Positions 7,285 through 34,884 of a DNA stretch of 64,000 bases are shown piece after piece. The position numbers and the translations under genes were made by a program. Each line of letters starts with the position of its first letter. The first letter of the stretch is position 1. The notes under the pieces are model-generated. The model had not been told where the DNA came from and ran no database searches. It saw nothing but the letters and a program-made list of their open reading frames with translations. This DNA is from Acidobacteriota bacterium (lineage in GTDB: Bacteria > Acidobacteriota > Blastocatellia > Pyrinomonadales > Pyrinomonadaceae). The DNA lies in assembly GCA_019242475.1 (NCBI GenBank), contig JAFAVK010000074.1, positions 1 to 64,000 of the forward strand, in the 5' to 3' direction.

Positions 7285-9252
7285 TCAGTTCGCGGCGCGC
7301 TCCTGCCCCTTCTCGCCCTTGCTGTCGAGCACGGAGCGCGCGACGGCCAGCGTGGCGAAGGCCCGCGGCGCCTCGCCGTCGAAGCCGCGCGCGAGGTCGG
7401 CCGCGCGTTGCAGCTCCTCGCGCGCCAGCTTCGTGAAGATGTCTGTGAGGTCGAACGACTGCACCGTGCTGCTCGACACCATCGTCATGTTCTTCGACTG
7501 GAAGCGCGTGCTGATGCGGCCGTCCTCGCCCGTATACTCCTTGGCGGCGTTCGCCGCCTTGACCACGTCGAGCATCACCTCCCACGCGCGCGGGCGGTCG
7601 AGGTCGTAGAGCTGCGTCGCGATGGCGACGAGCGCGCTCACGCGCTCCTTCGAAGCCGCGTCGATGCGCTCCTTCGCCTCGTGCAGTGCCTCGTCGAGGA
7701 GTTCGACGGCGCGGCCCGGCTCCTTCTTCGAGAGCAGCCGCGCGGCCTCGGTCAAAACCCACGCGCGCTGGATGCTCGTCAAAGTGTTCCCGCGCGCGAT
7801 CCTGAGCGCCTCGTCCGTGTTCTTCTCGTTGACGGCCGCGCGCGCCGCCTCCATGTCGATGTAGGCGCGCAGGCGCTGGCGCGTGTCCGTGTCCTCGATC
7901 TTGTTCAGGAACTCTTCGAGGCGCGAGTCCTTCTGCCGCAGGGCGTCGAAGGCGGCGTCCACGTAGACGGCGTCGCGCTCGTCGGCCGTCTTGGCGCGGT
8001 CGAGGCGCGCGAGCGTGTCGCCGACGCGGTCGCGGTTCGGGTCTTCGGGGACGAGCCCGCGCGTGAGCGCGTTGTTGGCGCCGGGCTGGCGCAGGCCGTC
8101 GGGCGTGTCGGGCGAGAGCGAAGCCTGCTTGGCGCGCAGCGCCGCCGACTTGTCCGGCGCGTACTGGTCGAAGAGCGGCAGCAGCCGCGTGATGACCATG
8201 TACCAGCCGGCGCGGCCCGCAGACGTTCGATCCTGTTCGGGCGCCGGCGTCGGGCGCATGAGGATCGCGGCCGCCGCGTTGAAGTAGACGGCGCGGAGCT
8301 GCGGCGGGACGTCGGCCGGCGGCTGGAACTGACCCTGCCCGTTCCCCCACGAGTTCGCGTTCGAGCCGGCGTCGGCCGAGAAGGTCATGTAGAGCGTCGG
8401 CGAGAAGAGGTAAGAGGCGAGCAGCGAGGCGGTGTTGGCGTCCGCCGCGGGGTTCGACGCGGCGCGGCCGGCCATCGCCGCGTAGCGCTCATCGGCCGCC
8501 TTCGCGTTCTGCGCGCGCAGCCGCGTCAGGAACTCAAGCCCGGGCGGCGTGACCCCGCCGAGCGCGGGGTCTGCGAACTGCGTCGCGCGCTCCACGTCGC
8601 CGTCCTGTAGAAGCTGGATGGCGAGGCGCAGGCGCTTGGCGACGGCGGGCGGCGTCTCCATCGGGTCGGGGCGCTGCTGCTCGGACTGCTGGTCGCCGCC
8701 CGCGTCGGCCGGCCGCTCGTTGGAGGTGGCGGCCGACTCCATCTCGCGCTTGCGCGCCTCGTCGAGCTTCGTCAAAAACTCTTCGCCGAGCGCGCGGTCG
8801 CGCTTGGCGGCGAGGCGGAGGACTTCCGTGCGCAGGCTCGGCGGGAGCTGGACGGAGGCGTAGCCGCGCTCGCGCTGCTGGCGCGCGCGGTCTTCGGCGA
8901 CGCGGCGGTCGGCCTCGGCGTCGGCCGCCTCGGCCTCGTCCCACGCGCGGCGGAAGAGCGTGACCGCCTTCTCGCGCTCGGTCTCCCAGAGGGCGTCGGC
9001 CGAGCGCGCCTGCACGCGCGCGCGCAGCGCGGGGTCGCGGAACATGCGCGCGTCGTCGGCGAGCGTGGAGACGAGCGAGATGGCGGTCGTGCGCCTGATC
9101 TCGGCCATCGGGTCGGCCGGCTCGGCGCCCGGCTTCTTCGCGGAAGCCTTCGCGGGCTTCGGCCTGGCGGCCGCCGGCTCCTGCGCGCCGGCTTGCAAGG
9201 GCGAGACGACGGTGCAAAGGGCGAGCGCCAGCAGCGAGACTCTTTTCGACAT
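7285..9252 (-). CDS. Large secreted helical-repeat protein, tandem paralogue 1
   Basis: The protein has 655 residues. The ATG at 9252 follows GGAGGT at good spacing. A signal peptide (SLLALALCTVVSPLQAGAQ) is followed by an alanine- and proline-rich linker. The remainder is almost entirely alpha-helical, with repeated A-x-x-L-x-x-A-R patterns such as ALRIARGNTLTSIQRAWVLTEAARLLSKKEPGRAVELLDEA in the second half, suggesting TPR- or HEAT-like solenoids. It is clearly homologous along its whole length to the neighbouring gene at 9382-11301: both have a DPMAE-(I/V)-RR start to the mature part, a LEDGD- or LQDGD-VERATQFADPAL segment, GLVPEDPNRDRV, and a C-terminal LARSVL motif. I do not recognise the family. 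A periplasmic scaffold role is possible. Confidence 0.7.
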   Translation of the reverse strand: MSKRVSLLALALCTVVSPLQAGAQEPAAARPKPAKASAKKPGAEPADPMAEIRRTTAISLVSTLADDARMFRDPALRARVQARSADALWETEREKAVTLFRRAWDEAEAADAEADRRVAEDRARQQRERGYASVQLPPSLRTEVLRLAAKRDRALGEEFLTKLDEARKREMESAATSNERPADAGGDQQSEQQRPDPMETPPAVAKRLRLAIQLLQDGDVERATQFADPALGGVTPPGLEFLTRLRAQNAKAADERYAAMAGRAASNPAADANTASLLASYLFSPTLYMTFSADAGSNANSWGNGQGQFQPPADVPPQLRAVYFNAAAAILMRPTPAPEQDRTSAGRAGWYMVITRLLPLFDQYAPDKSAALRAKQASLSPDTPDGLRQPGANNALTRGLVPEDPNRDRVGDTLARLDRAKTADERDAVYVDAAFDALRQKDSRLEEFLNKIEDTDTRQRLRAYIDMEAARAAVNEKNTDEALRIARGNTLTSIQRAWVLTEAARLLSKKEPGRAVELLDEALHEAKERIDAASKERVSALVAIATQLYDLDRPRAWEVMLDVVKAANAAKEYTGEDGRISTRFQSKNMTMVSSSTVQSFDLTDIFTKLAREELQRAADLARGFDGEAPRAFATLAVARSVLDSKGEKGQERAAN

Positions 9253-9279
9253 CGATGACCTCCGGGGCGACCGTCGGGG

Positions 9280-9360
9280 AATGATGAATGCTGAGTGATG
9301 AGTGATGAATAAAGGGCAAGCCGCTTCTTATTCATCACTCATCACTCAGCATTCATCATT
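9280..9360. repeat. Perfect 33-bp inverted repeat made of 7-bp units
   Basis: The arms at 9280-9312 and 9328-9360 are perfect reverse complements built from TGAGTGA/TGAATGC-type heptamers (right arm: TCATCAC, TCATCAC, TCAGCAT, TCATCAT). The loop is 15 nt. The structure lies between the two tandem paralogues, just downstream of the upstream copy's stop on the minus strand, and probably ends its transcript. Confidence 0.75.
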
Positions 9361-9381
9361 CCAAGGTCGTAAGTTCCAAAA

Positions 9382-11301
9382 TCAGTTCGACGCGATGCGC
9401 GCCTCTTTCTTGACGAGGACGGAGCGGGCGACGGCGAGCGTCGCCACCGAGCGTGGCGCCTCGGCCTTGAGCGAGCGAGCGAGCGCGGCGGCGCGGTCGA
9501 AGTCGTCGCGGGCGAGCGCGGCGAAGACGCCCGTCAGGTCGAACGCCTCGACGTTGTTGTTCTGCGTCATCGCGCCGCCGTCCTTGAACTCGACGCGGAC
9601 GGTGATGTCGCCGCCCTCGCCGCTGAAGTCCGAAAGGTCGTTGGCGGCCTTGACGACCTCCTGCATCGTCTCCCACGCGCGCGGCCGGTCGAGTTCCGTC
9701 AGCCGCGTGGCGACGGCGAGGAGCGCGCGCACGCGCTCGGGCGTGCGGTCGTCGAGCTTACGCGCCTCGGCCGCCGCCTCGTCGAGCGCTTCGGCGGCGC
9801 GGCCGGGCTGCTCCCTGGCGAAGAGGCGCGCGGCCTCGGTCAGGCCCCACACGCGCTGCACGCGCGTCAGCTCGTCGCCGTGCGAGAAGCGGAGCACGTC
9901 GTCCGGCTTCTTCGCGCGCACGGCCTCCTGCACCTGCCGGAAGGCCATGAACGAGAAGAGCTGCTTGCGCGTGTCCGGGTCTTCGATCTTGTTCGCCAGC
10001 TCGCGCGCACGCGCGGGGTCTGCTTCGAGCGCCGCCATCGCGGCGCGGAAGTAGACCAGGTCGCGCTCGTTGGAATTCTTGGCGCGGTCGAGCCGGTCGA
10101 GCGCGTCCTGCACGCGGTCGTGGTTCGGGTCTTCGGGGACGACGCCGCGCGTGAGCAGCTCGTTGTCGGGCTGGCGCGCGCGCTCGGGCGTGTCCTGCGC
10201 GAGCTGCGCCTGGCGCGCGCGCAGGGCCGCGGCGCGGTCGGGCGCGTAGCGGTCGAAGAGCGGGAGCATGCGCGTGACGACGACGTACGCGCCGGCACGC
10301 CCCGAAGAGGTGCGATCCTCTTCGACGGGCGGCACGGGCCGGAGCAGAATCTGCGAGGCCGCCCCGATGAACGCCTCGCGCAGGCGCGGGTCGAGGTCGT
10401 CGAACGGCGTGAAGGGGCCGAACTGCCGCGTGTGGCTGTTGCCGTCGGGGCGCACGGTGACGTAGAGGAGCGGCGTGAAGACGTAGGAGGAGAGCAGCGA
10501 GACGGTGTTGGCGTCGGAGAGCGGGTCGCCGGCCGCGCGCGTGACGAGCGCCAGGTAGCGCTGGTCGGCCGCCTCCCGGTTCTTCTTGTGCAGCGTGTTG
10601 AGGAAGTGCATCCCGAAGGTGTTGACCGGGTAGAGCACCGGGTCGGCGAACTGCGTGGCGCGCTCGGCGTCGCCGTCTTCGAGGAGTTGCTGCGCGAGGT
10701 TGAGCCGCTGCATCATCGGGCCGGGCGGGTTGTCGGGGTTGATGCGCTGCCCTTCGGTCTGCGCGGGCACCTGCGGGGAGGTCGTGGCGTTCGCCTCGTC
10801 CTTGCGCGCCTCGTCCAGCTTGGCGAGGAACTCTTCGCCGAGGTCGTGGTCGCGGCGCGAGGCGAGGATGACGACCTCGCGGCGCATGTTGAGCAGGCCG
10901 CGCGCGCCGGCCGCGCCCTGCGCGATCTCCCGGCGCTTGCGCTCTTCGTCGGAGAGGCTCGCGGTGTCGCGGTCGGCCGCCTCGGCCGCCTCCCAGGCGC
11001 GGCGGAAGAGCCCGCGCGCCTTCTCCTTGTCCGTCTCCCACAAGGCGTCTGCCGCACGCGCCTGCACGCGCGCGCGCAGGGCCGGCTCCGAGAAGGTGCG
11101 CGCCTCGTCGGCGAGCGCCGAGACGAGCGAGACGGCCGAAGCGCGGCGCACCTCGGCCATCGGGTCGGCCTCCTTCCCGGGACTCTTGGCTGCGGGCTTC
11201 TTCTGCGCGGCGGCCGGGGGCGGCGCCTGTGCGGAGGCTGCCGCCGGGGCCAGCGCCGAGACGCAGAGCGCGAAGGCCAGGAGGCGCGGGTGTCTGTCCA
11301 T
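9382..11301 (-). CDS. Large secreted helical-repeat protein, tandem paralogue 2
   Basis: The protein has 639 residues, with a signal peptide (LLAFALCVSALAPAAASAQ), a lysine- and proline-rich linker, and then the same helical body as its downstream neighbour. Shared landmarks include DPMAEVRRASAVSLVSALADE, DKEKARGLFRRAWEAAEAAD, GDAERATQFADPVLYP, a SSGRAGAYVVVTRMLPLFDRYAPD segment and RGVVPEDPNHDRV. The pair arose by tandem duplication and has diverged throughout. The presence of two exported copies suggests paired or differentially regulated roles. No catalytic motif is visible. The ribosome site is weak (AAGGACG). Confidence 0.7.
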   Translation of the reverse strand: MDRHPRLLAFALCVSALAPAAASAQAPPPAAAQKKPAAKSPGKEADPMAEVRRASAVSLVSALADEARTFSEPALRARVQARAADALWETDKEKARGLFRRAWEAAEAADRDTASLSDEERKRREIAQGAAGARGLLNMRREVVILASRRDHDLGEEFLAKLDEARKDEANATTSPQVPAQTEGQRINPDNPPGPMMQRLNLAQQLLEDGDAERATQFADPVLYPVNTFGMHFLNTLHKKNREAADQRYLALVTRAAGDPLSDANTVSLLSSYVFTPLLYVTVRPDGNSHTRQFGPFTPFDDLDPRLREAFIGAASQILLRPVPPVEEDRTSSGRAGAYVVVTRMLPLFDRYAPDRAAALRARQAQLAQDTPERARQPDNELLTRGVVPEDPNHDRVQDALDRLDRAKNSNERDLVYFRAAMAALEADPARARELANKIEDPDTRKQLFSFMAFRQVQEAVRAKKPDDVLRFSHGDELTRVQRVWGLTEAARLFAREQPGRAAEALDEAAAEARKLDDRTPERVRALLAVATRLTELDRPRAWETMQEVVKAANDLSDFSGEGGDITVRVEFKDGGAMTQNNNVEAFDLTGVFAALARDDFDRAAALARSLKAEAPRSVATLAVARSVLVKKEARIASN

Positions 11302-11379
11302 TTTTTTCGTCCTTAGTCCGGGGGCGTGAACCCTCGGTCGGGGTCGCGGTTCACGCCGGGCGTTAGCTGAAAGGTCTGG

Positions 11380-11420
11380 GACGCGCGCAGGCCCCCGGAT
11401 AGACGGCGGCCTGCGCGCGG
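11380..11420. terminator. GC-rich hairpin in the gap before the Nfu-like gene
   Basis: GCGCGCAGGC at about 11382 pairs with GCCTGCGCGC at about 11410 around a short loop. A second possible stem (CGTGAACC with GGTTCACG) sits at about 11326-11355. The 180-bp gap lies between the start of paralogue 2 and the stop of the Nfu-like gene, both on the minus strand. These hairpins probably end the Nfu-like transcript. Confidence 0.35.
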
Positions 11421-11481
11421 GCTGAGTTGGAGGGGTAAACGCCCCTGCTTCGGGGCCAGTTCCAAAAAACTGTTAGAGCGT

Positions 11482-12048
11482 TTAGACGGCGACGACTTCG
11501 ATGTCGGGGTCGATCTCCTGGCGGATGAGCCCTTCGATGCCGAGGAGCGTGCCCGAGAGCGAGCTGGGGCAACTACCGCAGGCGCCCTGGTAACGGATGG
11601 TGAGCGTCTTGTCGTTGAGCGAAAGTATTTCGAGCCAGCCGCCGTCCGAGGCGAGGTAGGGGCGCACCTTCTCGTCCAGAATCTCGTTGATGCGGGCGAG
11701 ACGCGGGTCGTCGCTCATGATGGCGCCGAGCGGGCCGCCGACGCCCGGCGGCTGCACCGCCGCGCCGCCGTTCGACGCGACCGACTCGGCCGCGCGGATG
11801 GGCACGGCGAGGCGCGGCAGGAGGTCGTCCCAGTCGGCCTCGTCCGTCTTCTCGACCGTGATCATCCTGTCCATGTAGAAGACCGACGAGACCTCGCCCA
11901 CGGCGAAGAGCGGGCCGGCCAGGGGGTCGCCGGCGGCCTCCGCCGCGCTGTGGAACGAGCGGGTCGTGCCGGCCGTCACCGGCTCCTTCAGGATGAACTT
12001 GACGGCGTTCGGGTTCGGCGTCTCTTCGATGTTGTCTATCTTCGGCAT
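11482..12048 (-). CDS. Nfu-type iron-sulfur cluster scaffold/carrier protein
   Basis: The protein has 188 residues and two domains. The N-terminal half (residues 1-85, beginning [17 protein letters not shown], with a later [11 protein letters not shown]) matches the Nfu N-terminal domain. The C-terminal half (about 115-188) is the NifU-like domain, with [15 protein letters not shown] and the cluster-binding CGSC in GACGSCPSS. Nfu proteins hold a [4Fe-4S] cluster between two subunits via this CxxC and deliver it to apo-proteins. The domain order matches the mitochondrial/NfuA-like type rather than nitrogenase NifU, which also carries an IscU domain. The gene stands alone. The nearby endonuclease III homologue is an Fe-S protein, but no operon links them. 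Confidence 0.92.
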
Positions 12049-12269
12049 CCGTTAACTCTCCGTAATGATAAAAAGGTCACTCAAATCAAAACGCGCCGCG
12101 GGCGAAGGCTTGTTGTCTGATTTTCGTCTGCGCCCATTATAACCCGATTCGCCGCCGCGCGCAGTCGCCGGCCGCGCGGCCCGCGCCCGGGCTAAATCGC
12201 GCTCCGGCTCGACTTCCGCGGGCGTCATTCATGGTGCCAATCCGTGTCTGCTGCCGGACAAAATTTAAT

Positions 12270-12298
12270 TTGTCAAAAGGGGAAAGTAGGCGTATAGT
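12270..12298 (+). promoter_or_regulatory. Strong sigma-70-type promoter
   Basis: TTGTCA (12270-12275) and TATAGT (12293-12298) are separated by exactly 17 bp, in an AT-rich patch (AAATTTAATT just upstream) of an otherwise GC-rich region. Transcription would start near 12305 and run into the hairpin structures at 12310-12388 and then toward bshA. Confidence 0.65.
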
Positions 12299-12304
12299 TC
12301 TGGC

Positions 12305-12388
12305 TCTCGCTTGTCCCCCCTTCGCAGGTGAGACAAGTTGAGACGAGAGGCAGACGGTAGCGAGGGCCGGCTGCCTCTCGGTATTTTT
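12305..12388 (+). ncRNA. Candidate small RNA or attenuator leader upstream of bshA
   Basis: Downstream of the promoter at 12270 lie two hairpins: CTTGTC/GACAAG (12310-12337), then a 10-bp stem CGAGAGGCAG/CTGCCTCTCG (12344-12380) followed at once by GTATTTTT. The latter has the form of an intrinsic terminator. The roughly 85-nt product has no open reading frame of note. It may be an independent small RNA, or a leader whose read-through controls bshA, which starts about 120 bp later. Nothing identifies a ligand or family. Confidence 0.45.
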
Positions 12389-12389
12389 A

Positions 12390-12502
12390 GAGCTGTTGGC
12401 CGTTAGCTGTTGGCTGTTAGCCCGACGCTTCCGGCCAACAGCTTTTCATTTGTTCGTGGGGTTTTGCTAAGCTAACAGCCAACAGCTAAAAGCTAACAGC
12501 TT
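12390..12502. repeat. Heptad-repeat inverted repeat upstream of bshA
   Basis: Left units (AGCTGTT, GGCCGTT, AGCTGTT, GGCTGTT, about 12391-12420) face right units (CTAACAG, CCAACAG, CTAAAAG, CTAACAG, about 12472-12500). A further partial copy, GGCCAACAGC, lies at about 12433. The right arm ends only a few bases before the bshA ATG and could overlap its ribosome-binding region, for which no clear Shine-Dalgarno sequence is otherwise seen. Confidence 0.65.
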
Positions 12503-12505
12503 CTT

Positions 12506-13651
12506 ATGAACATCGGAATCACAGTCTACCCGACCTACGGCGGGAGCGGCATCGTCGGCTCGGAGCTGGGGAAGGAGCTGGCCGAGCGCGGGCACACCGT
12601 GCACTTCATCTCGTCGGCGCTGCCGACCCGGCTCACGCAGCTCGGCGAGCGCGTGCGCTTCCACGAGGTCGAGATGATGTCGTACCCGCTCTTCGAGCAC
12701 CAGCCCTACACGCTCGCGCTCGCGACGAAGATGGCCGACGTGGCCGAGTCGGAAGACCTCGACCTGCTCCACGTCCACTACGCCATCCCGCACTCGATCA
12801 GCGCCATCCTCGCGCGCGAGTCTTTGAAGCCGCGGCGGACGCTGCCCGTCGTGACGACGCTGCACGGGACGGACATCACGCTCGTCGGCGCCGACCGTTC
12901 GTATTTGCCCATCACGCGCTACGGCATCGCGCAGTCGGACGGCGTCACCGCCGTCTCGCACTACCTCAAGCAGGCCACGGCCGAGACGTTCCAGTTCGAG
13001 CACATCGCCGTCATCCCCAACTTCATCTGCGCGACCGACTACAGCCGCAAGCCTAAAGAAGAGCTGCGCCGCGAGTTGTCTCCTGACGGCGAGCCCCTGC
13101 TCTGCCACGTCTCGAACTTCCGGCCCGTGAAGCGGCCCGTTGACTGCGTGGAGATTCTGGCGCGCGTGCGCGGGAAGGGCGTTAAGGCGCGGCTCGTGAT
13201 GGTGGGCGACGGGAGCGAGCGCGCGCGGGCCGAGCACCGCGCGCGCTGTCTGAAGGTGGAGCGCTACTGCTCGTTCGTCGGCAAGCAGCCGCGCATCACG
13301 GATTACCTCTCGGTCGCGGACGTGCTGCTCCTGCCTTCGGAGCAGGAGTCGTTCGGGCTCGCCGCGCTCGAAGCGCTGGCGTGCGAGGTGCCGGTCGTCG
13401 CCTCGCGCGTCGGCGGCGTCCCCGAAGTCGTGGACGACGGCGTGACGGGCTGCCTCGCGGAGGTCGGCGACGTGGAGAAGATGAGCGAGGACGCGGCGCG
13501 CCTGCTCTCGAATGAAGACACGCGCCGGGAGATGGGGCGGCGCGCGCGCGCGTCGGCCGTCGGCCGCTACAGCACAGACCTGGTCATCCCGCAGTACATC
13601 GAATTCTATGAGCGCGTCATCGCCGCGTCGAAAGAGAACCCCACGAAGTGA
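12506..13651 (+). CDS. bshA: N-acetyl-alpha-D-glucosaminyl L-malate synthase (BshA)
   Basis: The 381-residue protein is a GT4 glycosyltransferase. It opens [21 protein letters not shown], the BshA signature, and continues with [31 protein letters not shown] and [13 protein letters not shown]. The donor-binding half has SNFRPVKRP, the GDGSER loop, and the [22 protein letters not shown] motif with the conserved glutamates. BshA transfers GlcNAc from UDP-GlcNAc to L-malate, the first step of bacillithiol synthesis in the cytoplasm. The later-step genes bshB and bshC are not in the window. The stop overlaps the presumed start of nth. A small-RNA-like leader and repeat hairpin lie upstream. Confidence 0.93.
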
Positions 13652-14360
13652 GGCCGCGCGCCCTTCGCCGGCGGTCGAAGAGTGGGTCGGGTCGGTCGCC
13701 GAGGAGAAGCCGGTCGGCTACATCGTCCAGAACCTTGAGCGCGCCTACGGCGTGCCCGAGAACAGGTGGACGGACTGGGACGTGCTCGACATGCTCGTCG
13801 CCGTCATCCTCTCGCAGGCGACGAGCGACGCCAACAGCGACCGCACCTACGACGCCCTCAAGAAAAGGTTCCCGACCTGGGACGCCGTCCTGCGCGCGCG
13901 CGAACAGACGCTCGTCGAGACCATCCGCCTCGGCGGGCTCGCCAACCAGAAGGCCGCGGTCATCCGCGAACTGCTCCGTCAAATCAAAGAGCGGCACGGC
14001 TCCTTCGACCTCTCTTTCCTGCGCGGGCTGCCGGCCGCGGAGGCCGTCGCCTACCTCGCCTCGTTCCGCGGCGTCGGCCCGAAGACGGCGGCCTGCACGC
14101 TCCTCTTCGCCTGCGCCACGGAAGTCTTCCCGCTCGACACGCACATCTTCCGCGTGCTGCGCCGCGTCGGCCTCATCCCCTTGAAGTGCACGGACGAGTT
14201 CGCGCACCGCGTGATGAACCGCCTCGTGCCCGCGGGCAAGTTCTACTCCTTCCACGTCAACCTCATCCGCCACGGCCGCCGGCTCTGCCGGCCGCGCGAC
14301 CCCGTCTGCGAGCGCTGCCCCGTCGTCGAGTACTGCGACTACGGGCAGAAAAATATTTGA
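13608..14360 (+). CDS. nth: Endonuclease III homologue (DNA glycosylase/AP lyase)
   Basis: The protein has about 250 residues. The helix-hairpin-helix FRGVGPKTAAC holds the catalytic-type lysine, and PLDTHIFRVLRRVGL supplies the catalytic aspartate. The C-terminus has a four-cysteine [4Fe-4S] loop, CRPRDPVCERCPVVEYC, with the exact C-x6-C-x2-C-x5-C spacing. The enzyme would excise oxidised pyrimidines and cleave the abasic site. The start is uncertain: the ATG at 13608 lies inside the end of bshA, and a GTG at 13752 would still leave the core intact but cut the first helices. No ribosome site stands out. Overlap with bshA implies co-transcription. Confidence 0.88.
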   Translation: MSASSPRRKRTPRSEAARPSPAVEEWVGSVAEEKPVGYIVQNLERAYGVPENRWTDWDVLDMLVAVILSQATSDANSDRTYDALKKRFPTWDAVLRAREQTLVETIRLGGLANQKAAVIRELLRQIKERHGSFDLSFLRGLPAAEAVAYLASFRGVGPKTAACTLLFACATEVFPLDTHIFRVLRRVGLIPLKCTDEFAHRVMNRLVPAGKFYSFHVNLIRHGRRLCRPRDPVCERCPVVEYCDYGQKNI

Positions 14361-14584
14361 GGAACGGGCCCGACGCCTGTGCAATCTCCCGCCCGCTGTC
14401 GAGAGCGTCGCATGCCCCGTCCCGCGGCGCCGCACTCACGACTGATAGTTTTAGAAATCATTCAGAGCGTTAACTGACGAGAGCGAGTCAGGGCGTTGAC
14501 GAATTGGGGCGGGGCTGTCTCTTCACGGGCGCCCCGCGTCCGCGTTTGAGGTGGCCCCGCCGCAGCGCGAAAGGAGAAGCGCAG

Positions 14585-16450
14585 ATGCACGACGTAAGAA
14601 TCGTTTACCTCGTCAGAGACGAGAAGCCCATCAAGGAGTCCCAGTTCTTGCCCGGTGCCGTGGGCGGGTGCCCCATCACCGGGGCGCGGGCCTCGACCGA
14701 GAAGGTTATGTACCCGCCGGTCTGGTTCGGGAGGATGTTCCCCCCGAGGCGGATGGAGGGCCTGAGCGAAGAGCAGTTGATGAAGATTGCCGGGTGCCTC
14801 ATCAAGTTGGGCAAATGTATGGACAACCCGGCGGCGTACTTCAACGTCCCCGAGAACAAGCCGGATGCGCCGGCCGGCGTCGTCGCCAACCCCCCGCAGC
14901 AGGAGTCCGACATCCCGGCGGGCTACACCTACCTCGGCCAGTTCATCGCGCACGAGGTTACTTTCGACGGCGTGGGCGCGAAGAGCCTGCCGCTCGTCGA
15001 GGAGCCCGAGAACATTCGCTCGCCGAGCCTCGACCTCGACAGCCTTTACGGGGCGGGGGCGGACGACGAGCCCCCGAAAGAACTTTACGAGCAGGGGCCG
15101 TACCCCGTGCGGCTGAAGGTCGGCTGGACGCAGCCCCCGCCCCCGACCGCCCCGACCGATTCGTCCAAGCGCAGCACGTTCCCCGAGTTCCAGAACGACC
15201 TGCCGCGCAAGGTGACGCGCGCCGGAGACGGCGACGAAAAGGAGAGGGGCGTGGCCCTCATCGGCGACGAGCGCAACGACGAGAACCTGCCGCTGGCGCA
15301 GACCCACGTCGCCTTCCTCAAGTTCCACAACCGCGTCGTCGAAGACCTCAAAGGCGGGCGCTATAAAGACTGCCCACCCCCGGCCTCCGAGGAGGAGCTG
15401 TTCAAGAGGGCGAGGGAGGAGGTCGTCAAGCACTTTCAGTGGATAGTCCTGAAGGACTACCTCCCGAGAATCGTGAACAAAGACCTGCTCAAGTCCCTGA
15501 CCCGGGAGCCCTCCTCCGACAAGTTCACCTTTAAGGATAAAAACGACCTCTTCATCCCGCTCGAATTCTCCGCCGCCGCCTTCCGCATCGGGCACAGCAT
15601 GGTGCGCCGGGAGTATCTGTGGAACCAGGAGCAAGGTAAGGTGAAGGTGTTTCAACTCTTCACCCAAACGAAACGGAGCGGCAACCTCGGCGGCTTCGAC
15701 CGCCTGAACAGCACGTGGGTCATCGACTGGAAGCGTTTCTACGACTTCACGCCGTTCGCCAGCGAGTACCCGCCCCCGTACGACCCGCCGCAGGTTTTCA
15801 ACAGGGCCGCGAAGATCGACACGGTCTTCGACCTCCATCTCGAAAAGATAACGGGCTTCCAAAACCTCCCGCAGCCCGGAGCGGCGAACGGCGCCGGAGA
15901 GAAGCCCGACGAAAAGAAGGCCGCGGACACTCTGTTCAACGGGGAGAAGGCGCTCCCCGCCCGCAACCTCCTGCGCGGCCTCGCGCTCGGCCTCCCGTGG
16001 GCCGAGGACGTGGCGGATGAGTTGCAAAAGAAGGAGCTGCTTACGGAGGAGGAGCGCCTGACGCCTGCGGAGTTAAGGGACGGGCCGCACGCGAAGCTGC
16101 TCGACGCCGAGGCATTCGATAAGAAGACGCCGCTCTGGTTCTACGTCTTGAGGGAGGCCGCGGCGCAGGAGGCCAAGGTGCCGGAGAACCACGGCCGGCT
16201 CGGGCCGGTCGGCGGGCGCATCGTCGCCGAGACGCTCATCGGGCTCATCCGCCACAGCACCTACTCGATCCTCCAGCGGGTCGAGGGGGAGGAGTCCGAG
16301 TGGGAGCTTTCCGACTGGCGCCCGGCGTACGGCCGCGTCCGGGACGTGCCGGAGGGGGTGAAGTTCGAGATGGTAGACCTGCTCCGCGCCGCCGACGTGG
16401 TCGATCCGATGGGCAAGTTCAACTATCAGACCGTCCATCCCCGGCCCTGA
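14585..16450 (+). CDS. Animal-type haem peroxidase superfamily protein
   Basis: The 621-residue protein starts at the ATG at 14585, preceded by AAGGAG. It has no signal peptide, so it is probably cytoplasmic. Peroxidase-cyclooxygenase superfamily landmarks are present: YTYLGQFIAHEVTFD near residue 115 (distal histidine region), LPLAQTHVAFLKFHNRVV near 240, and FSAAAFRIGHSMVRREY near 330, where the GHS histidine is the usual proximal haem ligand. Bacterial members of this superfamily oxidise small substrates or tyrosines with hydrogen peroxide. It is followed by a small unknown gene and a lanthionine-synthetase-like kinase. The grouping suggests that the peroxidase modifies, or works with, those products. 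Confidence 0.85.
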   Translation: MHDVRIVYLVRDEKPIKESQFLPGAVGGCPITGARASTEKVMYPPVWFGRMFPPRRMEGLSEEQLMKIAGCLIKLGKCMDNPAAYFNVPENKPDAPAGVVANPPQQESDIPAGYTYLGQFIAHEVTFDGVGAKSLPLVEEPENIRSPSLDLDSLYGAGADDEPPKELYEQGPYPVRLKVGWTQPPPPTAPTDSSKRSTFPEFQNDLPRKVTRAGDGDEKERGVALIGDERNDENLPLAQTHVAFLKFHNRVVEDLKGGRYKDCPPPASEEELFKRAREEVVKHFQWIVLKDYLPRIVNKDLLKSLTREPSSDKFTFKDKNDLFIPLEFSAAAFRIGHSMVRREYLWNQEQGKVKVFQLFTQTKRSGNLGGFDRLNSTWVIDWKRFYDFTPFASEYPPPYDPPQVFNRAAKIDTVFDLHLEKITGFQNLPQPGAANGAGEKPDEKKAADTLFNGEKALPARNLLRGLALGLPWAEDVADELQKKELLTEEERLTPAELRDGPHAKLLDAEAFDKKTPLWFYVLREAAAQEAKVPENHGRLGPVGGRIVAETLIGLIRHSTYSILQRVEGEESEWELSDWRPAYGRVRDVPEGVKFEMVDLLRAADVVDPMGKFNYQTVHPRP

Positions 16451-16564
16451 TATGTTCCGCCGCGGAGTCGGAACCCGCGGCCAACCCGACCGCGACGCCG
16501 CCCCGCGGACGCGTCACGGCCTTCGCAAAACGCTCCGCGCGAGCACGCCGAGGAGGCACAACCG

Positions 16565-16972
16565 ATGAGCATGAAAGATAACCTACAGAAGGCCCGGAAG
16601 GCGATAAACAATGATCCCACGGCAATCGGAGTAGCCAAAGAACTCCGCGAGGCGGCTATCGAGGTCATCACGCACGGCGGCATAGAGTCCGAGCTGGGGA
16701 GGAAGTACATGGCGCTCTTCTGCGACACCAAGAACGAGCTGGCGCGACTGACGGTCGCGAGCGACAGCGACGCGAACTACATGCCGCGGGTGAGGGCCTA
16801 CACCGCGGCGGACGCCATCTGCATACCCGAAACGGGCGCCGGGTTCGCGGCCAGGATTCTGAGTCCGGACATAGTGCTGGAGCCGGTCGCGGACGAGGAG
16901 GTGCCGGCGGATATGAAGGAACCATCCACCATCAGGGACGTCGCGCTCTTTCAGAAGTTGCAGCAGGGATAA
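16565..16972 (+). CDS. Unknown 135-residue protein between peroxidase and LanKC-like genes
   Basis: The protein starts at 16565 with GAGGAGG eight bases upstream, a strong site. It is soluble, with a helical N-terminal half (DNLQKARKAINNDPTAIGVAKELREAAIEV) and a mixed second half. It has two cysteines, in ALFCDTK and DAICIPE. I recognise no family. Its position directly between a haem peroxidase (115 bp upstream) and a lyase/kinase of the lanthipeptide type (81 bp downstream) makes it a candidate substrate of one or both enzymes, although it is longer than usual class III precursors. It could equally be an accessory subunit. No signal peptide is seen. Confidence 0.55.
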   Translation: MSMKDNLQKARKAINNDPTAIGVAKELREAAIEVITHGGIESELGRKYMALFCDTKNELARLTVASDSDANYMPRVRAYTAADAICIPETGAGFAARILSPDIVLEPVADEEVPADMKEPSTIRDVALFQKLQQG

Positions 16973-17053
16973 GAACGCGAACCCCGGACGTGCCTCGTGA
17001 GGGCCGCCGCGTCTTGGGGCGGCCCTCCGCCCTGCGCGCCTTCCACCAGGAGC

Positions 17054-34807: not shown

Positions 34808-34884
34808 GGCGGGGTAGCTCAGCTGGTCAGAGCGTGGGATTCATAACCCCAAGGTCGGGAGTTCAAGTCTCCCCCCCGCTACCA
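34808..34884 (+). tRNA. tRNA-Met(CAT), elongator type
   Basis: A full cloverleaf is visible: acceptor GGCGGGG with CCCCGCT (a G-T closing pair), D-arm GCTC-AGCTGGTCA-GAGC, anticodon loop TTCATAA with CAT, T-arm GGGAG-TTCAAGT-CTCCC, discriminator A and an encoded CCA. The sequence GGATTCATAACC is typical of elongator tRNA-Met. The 3' half, from the anticodon loop to beyond the CCA, is the attachment site of the downstream element, which restores the gene on integration. Confidence 0.93.

Follow-up and report, generated by a model that had tools for sequence, protein, structure and literature searches.

A conserved small RNA with its own promoter and terminator upstream of bshA in Pyrinomonadaceae, probably a gene in its own right

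Small RNAs with C-rich loops are among the described systems closest to the locus analysed here. PMC3771888 describes sX13 of Xanthomonas as a trans-encoded sRNA of 115 nt with 4C and UCCCCCU motifs in hairpin loops; its C-rich loops, three in number, target mRNAs that carry G-rich motifs close to the start codon. One passage of the same paper, on which our whole comparison with HPnc5490 of Helicobacter pylori is based, gives that RNA a UCCCCCU loop motif, and the likeness consists in this motif (PMC3771888). For the Acidobacteria, a 2022 review counts 4 distinct annotated sRNAs in the phylum (PMC9029176). Among the matches listed for the open-licence literature, which were available as excerpts, nothing concerned the RNA described below or a bshA leader.

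The locus lies in the window, the whole 64-kb stretch of Pyrinomonadaceae DNA that was analysed, between a divergent Nfu/NifU-like gene (nfu) and bshA. A preliminary description had placed there a promoter followed by two hairpins and a terminator with a T-run ahead of bshA, all of which were found within positions 12270-12388 (Table 1). Our reading is that they probably make up a small RNA gene, about 85 nt long, that stands alone with a sigma-70-type promoter and an intrinsic terminator of its own. Comparison among genomes shows that the unit is conserved, that it covaries and that it persists where bshA lies elsewhere. The RNA family is most likely new, having no Rfam match, and of a general kind already known. 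With the attenuator leaders of biosynthetic genes (PMC2965389) it shares a promoter, a hairpin and a terminator upstream of a biosynthetic gene; unlike them, the unit persists without that gene, and the one antiterminator pairing tested is without covariation. It resembles sX13 in its similar size and in a C-rich motif (UCCCCCCU in hairpin 1), whereas it differs in having two hairpins, a single C-run, partly paired in the predicted folds, and a terminator loop, GCGAGGG, that does not vary; we do not suggest that the two share an ancestor. HPnc5490 belongs to another organism and another phylum.

Table 1. Positions of the small RNA, its signals and its neighbours in the window
Feature	Position	Strand	Basis
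Nfu/NifU-like gene, divergent neighbour outside the RNA unit	11482..12048	-	PF08712 and PF01106
-35 box TTGTCA	12270..12275	+	consensus scan; TTG in the best-scoring -35 of 37/37 homologues
-10 box TATAGT	12293..12298	+	consensus scan; TATANT in 35/37 homologues
Small RNA, about 85 nt (probable gene)	12304..12388	+	fold z -4.41; R1 match 103.8 bits, the window sequence itself being among R1's building sequences
Hairpin 1, apical part variable	12306..12342	+	helix 1 100% and helix 2 93.3% of cells paired (36 distinct sequences)
Candidate pairing site: C-run of hairpin 1	12315..12320	+	at least 3 C in 34/37 and at least 4 C in 30/37 homologues, counted within the RNA's first 35 nt
Terminator hairpin (hairpin 2)	12344..12380	+	12/14 pairs changed on both sides
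Terminator loop U[A/U]GCGAGGG, 9 nt	12358..12366	+	T[A/T]GCGAGGG in 37/37 homologues
U-tract TATTTTT	12382..12388	+	sequence and terminator-like scan
bshA, neighbour outside the RNA unit	12506..13651	+	TIGR03999, 491.8 bits (cut-off 273.7)

The small RNA's own promoter is conserved together with the RNA. TTGTCA-17-TATAGT is present just as it had been described; it agrees with the consensus at 10 of 12 positions and is the better of two promoter-like sites in the 8 kb from 9000 to 17000, where shuffled sequences contain 0.4 +/- 0.7. Among the 37 homologues, at least 9 of 12 positions are matched in 35 and at least 8 in all 37, compared with a mean of 2.4 and a maximum of 7 of 37 reaching at least 9 of 12 when the upstream sequences were shuffled (200 rounds). 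The spacer measures 17 nt in 36 homologues and 18 in one, and the distance from the promoter to the start of the covariance model R1 is 2-4 nt in 35 of the 37. We infer that the RNA is transcribed; its 5' end would fall at 12304, a position deduced from its spacing relative to the -10 box.

The segment from 12304 to 12388 folds at -42.1 kcal/mol, and 0 of 200 shuffles folded equally well. Hairpin 1 is closed by CUC/GAG (12306-12308 with 12340-12342) and CUUG/CAAG (12310-12313 with 12334-12337), and three of the 37 homologues have at most 2 C in their C-run. The RNA has its own intrinsic terminator, with a stem that covaries: arms of 14 positions (12344-12357 and 12367-12380) that are 93% complementary, longer than the 10-bp stem first noted there, are followed by GTATTTTT, which reaches 12388. 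A lone terminator-like site would be weak evidence, since the same 8 kb holds 12 of them against 6.0 +/- 3.3 in shuffles. The 85 nt carry no conserved ORF, as expected from the earlier view of an RNA without a gene. A leader peptide was considered and rejected, as the GTG frame from 12328 is frameshifted by an indel in one homologue (L010) and the GTG is missing in another (L015; both by eye). The name bshA given previously to the downstream gene agrees with its TIGR03999 score. Beyond nfu, two tandem long ORFs on the minus strand (7285-9252 and 9382-11301) look similar by eye, and other genomes again have relatives of the second close to nfu.

A DNA search of 97 genomes, including the window's own, matched the RNA in 22, with one match in each, the own genome among them. 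R1, built from these 22 matches, gave matches with E <= 1.9e-10 in 37 out of 119 genomes of the family (22 used for model building and 15 new), a lower bound because stricter filters apply above 40 genomes. The best match outside the family, among 162 genomes of the class searched with R1, had an E-value of 0.012. Twelve weaker R1 matches were kept out of the 37; ten of these were inspected, and the GCGAGGG loop was present in five (L052, L053, L054, L056 and L057) and absent in five. About 50 family genomes have bshA and no strong match, and in bshA-upstream regions from 19 of them the RNA was absent (best E 1; 20 regions sampled, one of 3 nt left out). Upstream of bshA in three genomes without the RNA (L107, L110 and L115), a palindrome-like TGTAAC...GTTACG, possibly an operator, overlaps the probable bshA promoter by eye. 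A stricter motif was matched in 20 named public records, namely MAGs labelled Pyrinomonadaceae (10), Acidobacteria or Acidobacteriota (8), Blastocatellia (1) and Chloracidobacterium (1); phage records were not matched.

Searches against Rfam 15 reached a gathering score in the whole window for one tRNA alone (34808-34881), and between 12200 and 12560 loose thresholds returned three matches with E-values of 0.19 to 9.6, all far under the gathering scores. SRP RNA and 6S RNA were rejected as identities, the genome's single matches to RF00169 (C111:27049-27147) and RF00013 (C6:41849-42042) being elsewhere. A hairpin-only model, R2, gave many matches in 28 genomes; in 20 further stretches that it retrieved, GCGAGGG stood in or beside the loop in seven (L124, L125, L126, L128, L130, L139 and L142) and not in 13. 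R2 mostly detects other terminators, and we therefore draw no count from it.

The preliminary description had proposed covariation in relatives as a check, and the stems do covary. In an alignment fitted to R1 (37 sequences, 36 distinct), 94.4% of cells are paired and 15 of 22 pairs changed on both sides, compared with 6.3 in shuffles; the covariation score is 0.267 against 0.151, a value reached in 0 of 500 shuffles, and slid registers score at most 0.088. That alignment is fitted to the model; an unfitted MAFFT alignment of 22 sequences points in the same direction more weakly (0.237 against 0.143; 0/500). In the unfitted alignment, 6 pairs changed on both sides against 3.4 (20/500), further pair types were not raised (18 against 20.0 in shuffles) and helix 1 had no pair changed on both sides, which places the covariation mainly in the terminator stem. 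Hairpin 1 hardly varies at its base, whose support is therefore chiefly compatibility; of the 5 pairs in the CUUG helix, 3 changed on both sides when the larger alignment, fitted to R1, was used.

Judged by genome comparison, the RNA is conserved independently of the downstream gene. bshA lies about 40-450 nt 3' of it in 31 out of 37 genomes, one of which (G028) has a small ORF inside the gap, and stands apart from it, with RNA and promoter still intact, in the other six, three of them on draft contigs. In G145, G150 and G147, bshA is found 4.6, 5.3 and 1.9 kb downstream, respectively, behind other ORFs. In G013, G053 and G058, separations that depend on draft contigs and are limited by contig breaks, bshA is on another contig, and the 1.7-2.4 kb upstream of it are without the RNA; the RNA is followed there by a peptidase M2 gene (G013), an ECF sigma factor gene (G053) or an opposite-strand ORF with no Pfam match (G058).

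G145 and G150 (L069/L070) have the same CHAT gene between RNA and bshA. Two opposite-strand ORFs separate RNA and bshA in G150, one of them a CHAT/TPR gene whose 3' end lies directly behind the terminator, and at this position G145 retains a fragment of a similar CHAT gene (77% amino acid identity over 173 residues). Because both genomes share this gene at this position, the insertion probably predates their divergence. Promoter and RNA are nonetheless 80% identical between them, compared with 61% for the sequence upstream and 26% for that downstream. This suggests continued selection on the RNA after its separation from bshA, and the case for a separate RNA gene draws chiefly on such persistence.

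Where bshA is near, the promoter might serve both, mostly making the short RNA and supplying bshA mRNA by read-through of a leaky terminator, an arrangement that we consider possible, if rather doubtful. It fits the proximity of bshA in 31 of the 37 genomes and the gap between them: a site of at least 8/12 occurs in 7 of these 31 gaps against 4.0 expected from shuffles, and a consensus scan of the window's own gap finds no promoter-like site. With no second promoter above chance, bshA may still use that of the RNA by read-through. It also fits the relocated bshA of G013, which has a promoter-like TTGACG-16-TATACT of its own (by eye). Against it, the gap commonly contains a long inverted repeat (20/31 gaps have a fold z < -3), which could hinder expression through a long leader. 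By eye, this repeat consists of degenerate units of about 7 nt, spans 12391-12501 in the window and recurs in many of the 31 genomes with a sequence that differs from one to the next (e.g. L003, L010, L011, L014, L016 and L021). In L007, an ORF stands between its arms, as in a mobile element; we take its product to resemble S23/four-helix-bundle proteins. Nothing fitting such gap repeats was found among the literature matches listed.

An attenuator or riboswitch-type leader, in which a signal would shift the fold between terminator and antiterminator and so control bshA, is unlikely. The closeness of bshA in most genomes and the lack of a second promoter above chance would suit it, as would the absence in the window of any gene reading in from upstream, nfu being divergent. 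However, an attenuator should always lie in cis to its gene, and the six separated genomes, with bshA kilobases away or on another contig, depart from this, among them G150 with its two intervening opposite-strand ORFs. Nor is the sequence from terminator to bshA conserved (by eye). The two hairpins are adjacent and compatible and hence form no built-in switch, and the one alternative pairing tested, 5' CCUC with GAGG of the terminator, scores 0.123 against 0.114, as high in 66 of 500 shuffles. Thus, of the two options offered by the preliminary description, the small RNA is upheld, as a conserved covarying unit that in 6 of 37 genomes is without bshA next to it, and attenuation as the main role gives way to the compatible hairpins and the persistence without bshA. 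A transcription stop alone, shielding bshA from the side of nfu and making no functional RNA, is highly improbable: the terminator hairpin does hold the invariant loop and the greater part of the covariation, but with nfu divergent there is nothing obvious to stop on the plus strand, and both hairpin 1 and the promoter, which an insulator does not need, are conserved as well.

As a standalone small RNA, it would most likely act in trans by base-pairing with mRNAs. The C-run of hairpin 1 could pair with G-rich ribosome-binding sites, and the invariant GCGAGGG loop may be a pairing site instead of or besides it; in predicted folds, the C-run has a mean unpaired probability of 0.44 (range 0.004-0.99, n=34) and the loop one of 0.79 (n=37), with 0.35 for the whole RNA. 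Hfq, which is encoded in the own genome (at C67), would perhaps assist pairing; ProQ and CsrA had no match in this genome, which is roughly 91% complete. The adjacent genes are not supported as base-pairing targets: 90-100% of 227 background starts pair with the RNA at least as well as the start regions of nfu and bshA, so their pairing is not unusual. The two genes are neighbours, not demonstrated targets.

The GCGAGGG loop is no general terminator habit in the own genome, where 409 kb contain it in 1 of 40 T-tailed hairpins, this RNA itself. In 377 kb of G042 it occurs in 2 of 43, this RNA and one other; such counts are lower bounds, because the strict tail rule missed a sibling hairpin in G042. 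In a few relatives, hairpins shortly behind the ORFs of other genes bear the same loop, so that it may serve termination rather than targeting; those of G022 (L052) and G003 (L056) stand about 10 nt behind an ORF. The sequence AGAGGC is frequent in terminator-like stems (4/40 T-tailed hairpins in G000 and 6/43 in G042, counted without a control), possibly a habit of the lineage.

A second RNA was seen in three genomes of one genus (G042 L054:2069-2154, G022 L053:2090-2174 and G052 L057:1306-1391), between ORFs that look response-regulator-like and TPR-like by eye. Its elements, likewise read by eye, are TTGTCA-17-TAGAGT, CCUUCCCCC and a terminator-like hairpin bearing the common UUGCGAGGG loop. 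Together with the similar hairpins, it suggests a shared module, too thinly documented for a superfamily claim. That the RNA founds a family of sibling small RNAs within the Pyrinomonadaceae, on a common scaffold in which a C-run precedes a terminator hairpin whose invariant loop U[A/U]GCGAGGG is functional as a seed or in protein binding, is a tentative idea that we regard as somewhat improbable.

The location of this RNA calls for caution, as a position upstream of a biosynthetic gene can disguise a separate RNA gene as a leader. This RNA is conserved and structurally defined, has a promoter and a terminator and belongs to a genome that bears Hfq, which makes it a concrete and testable entry point.
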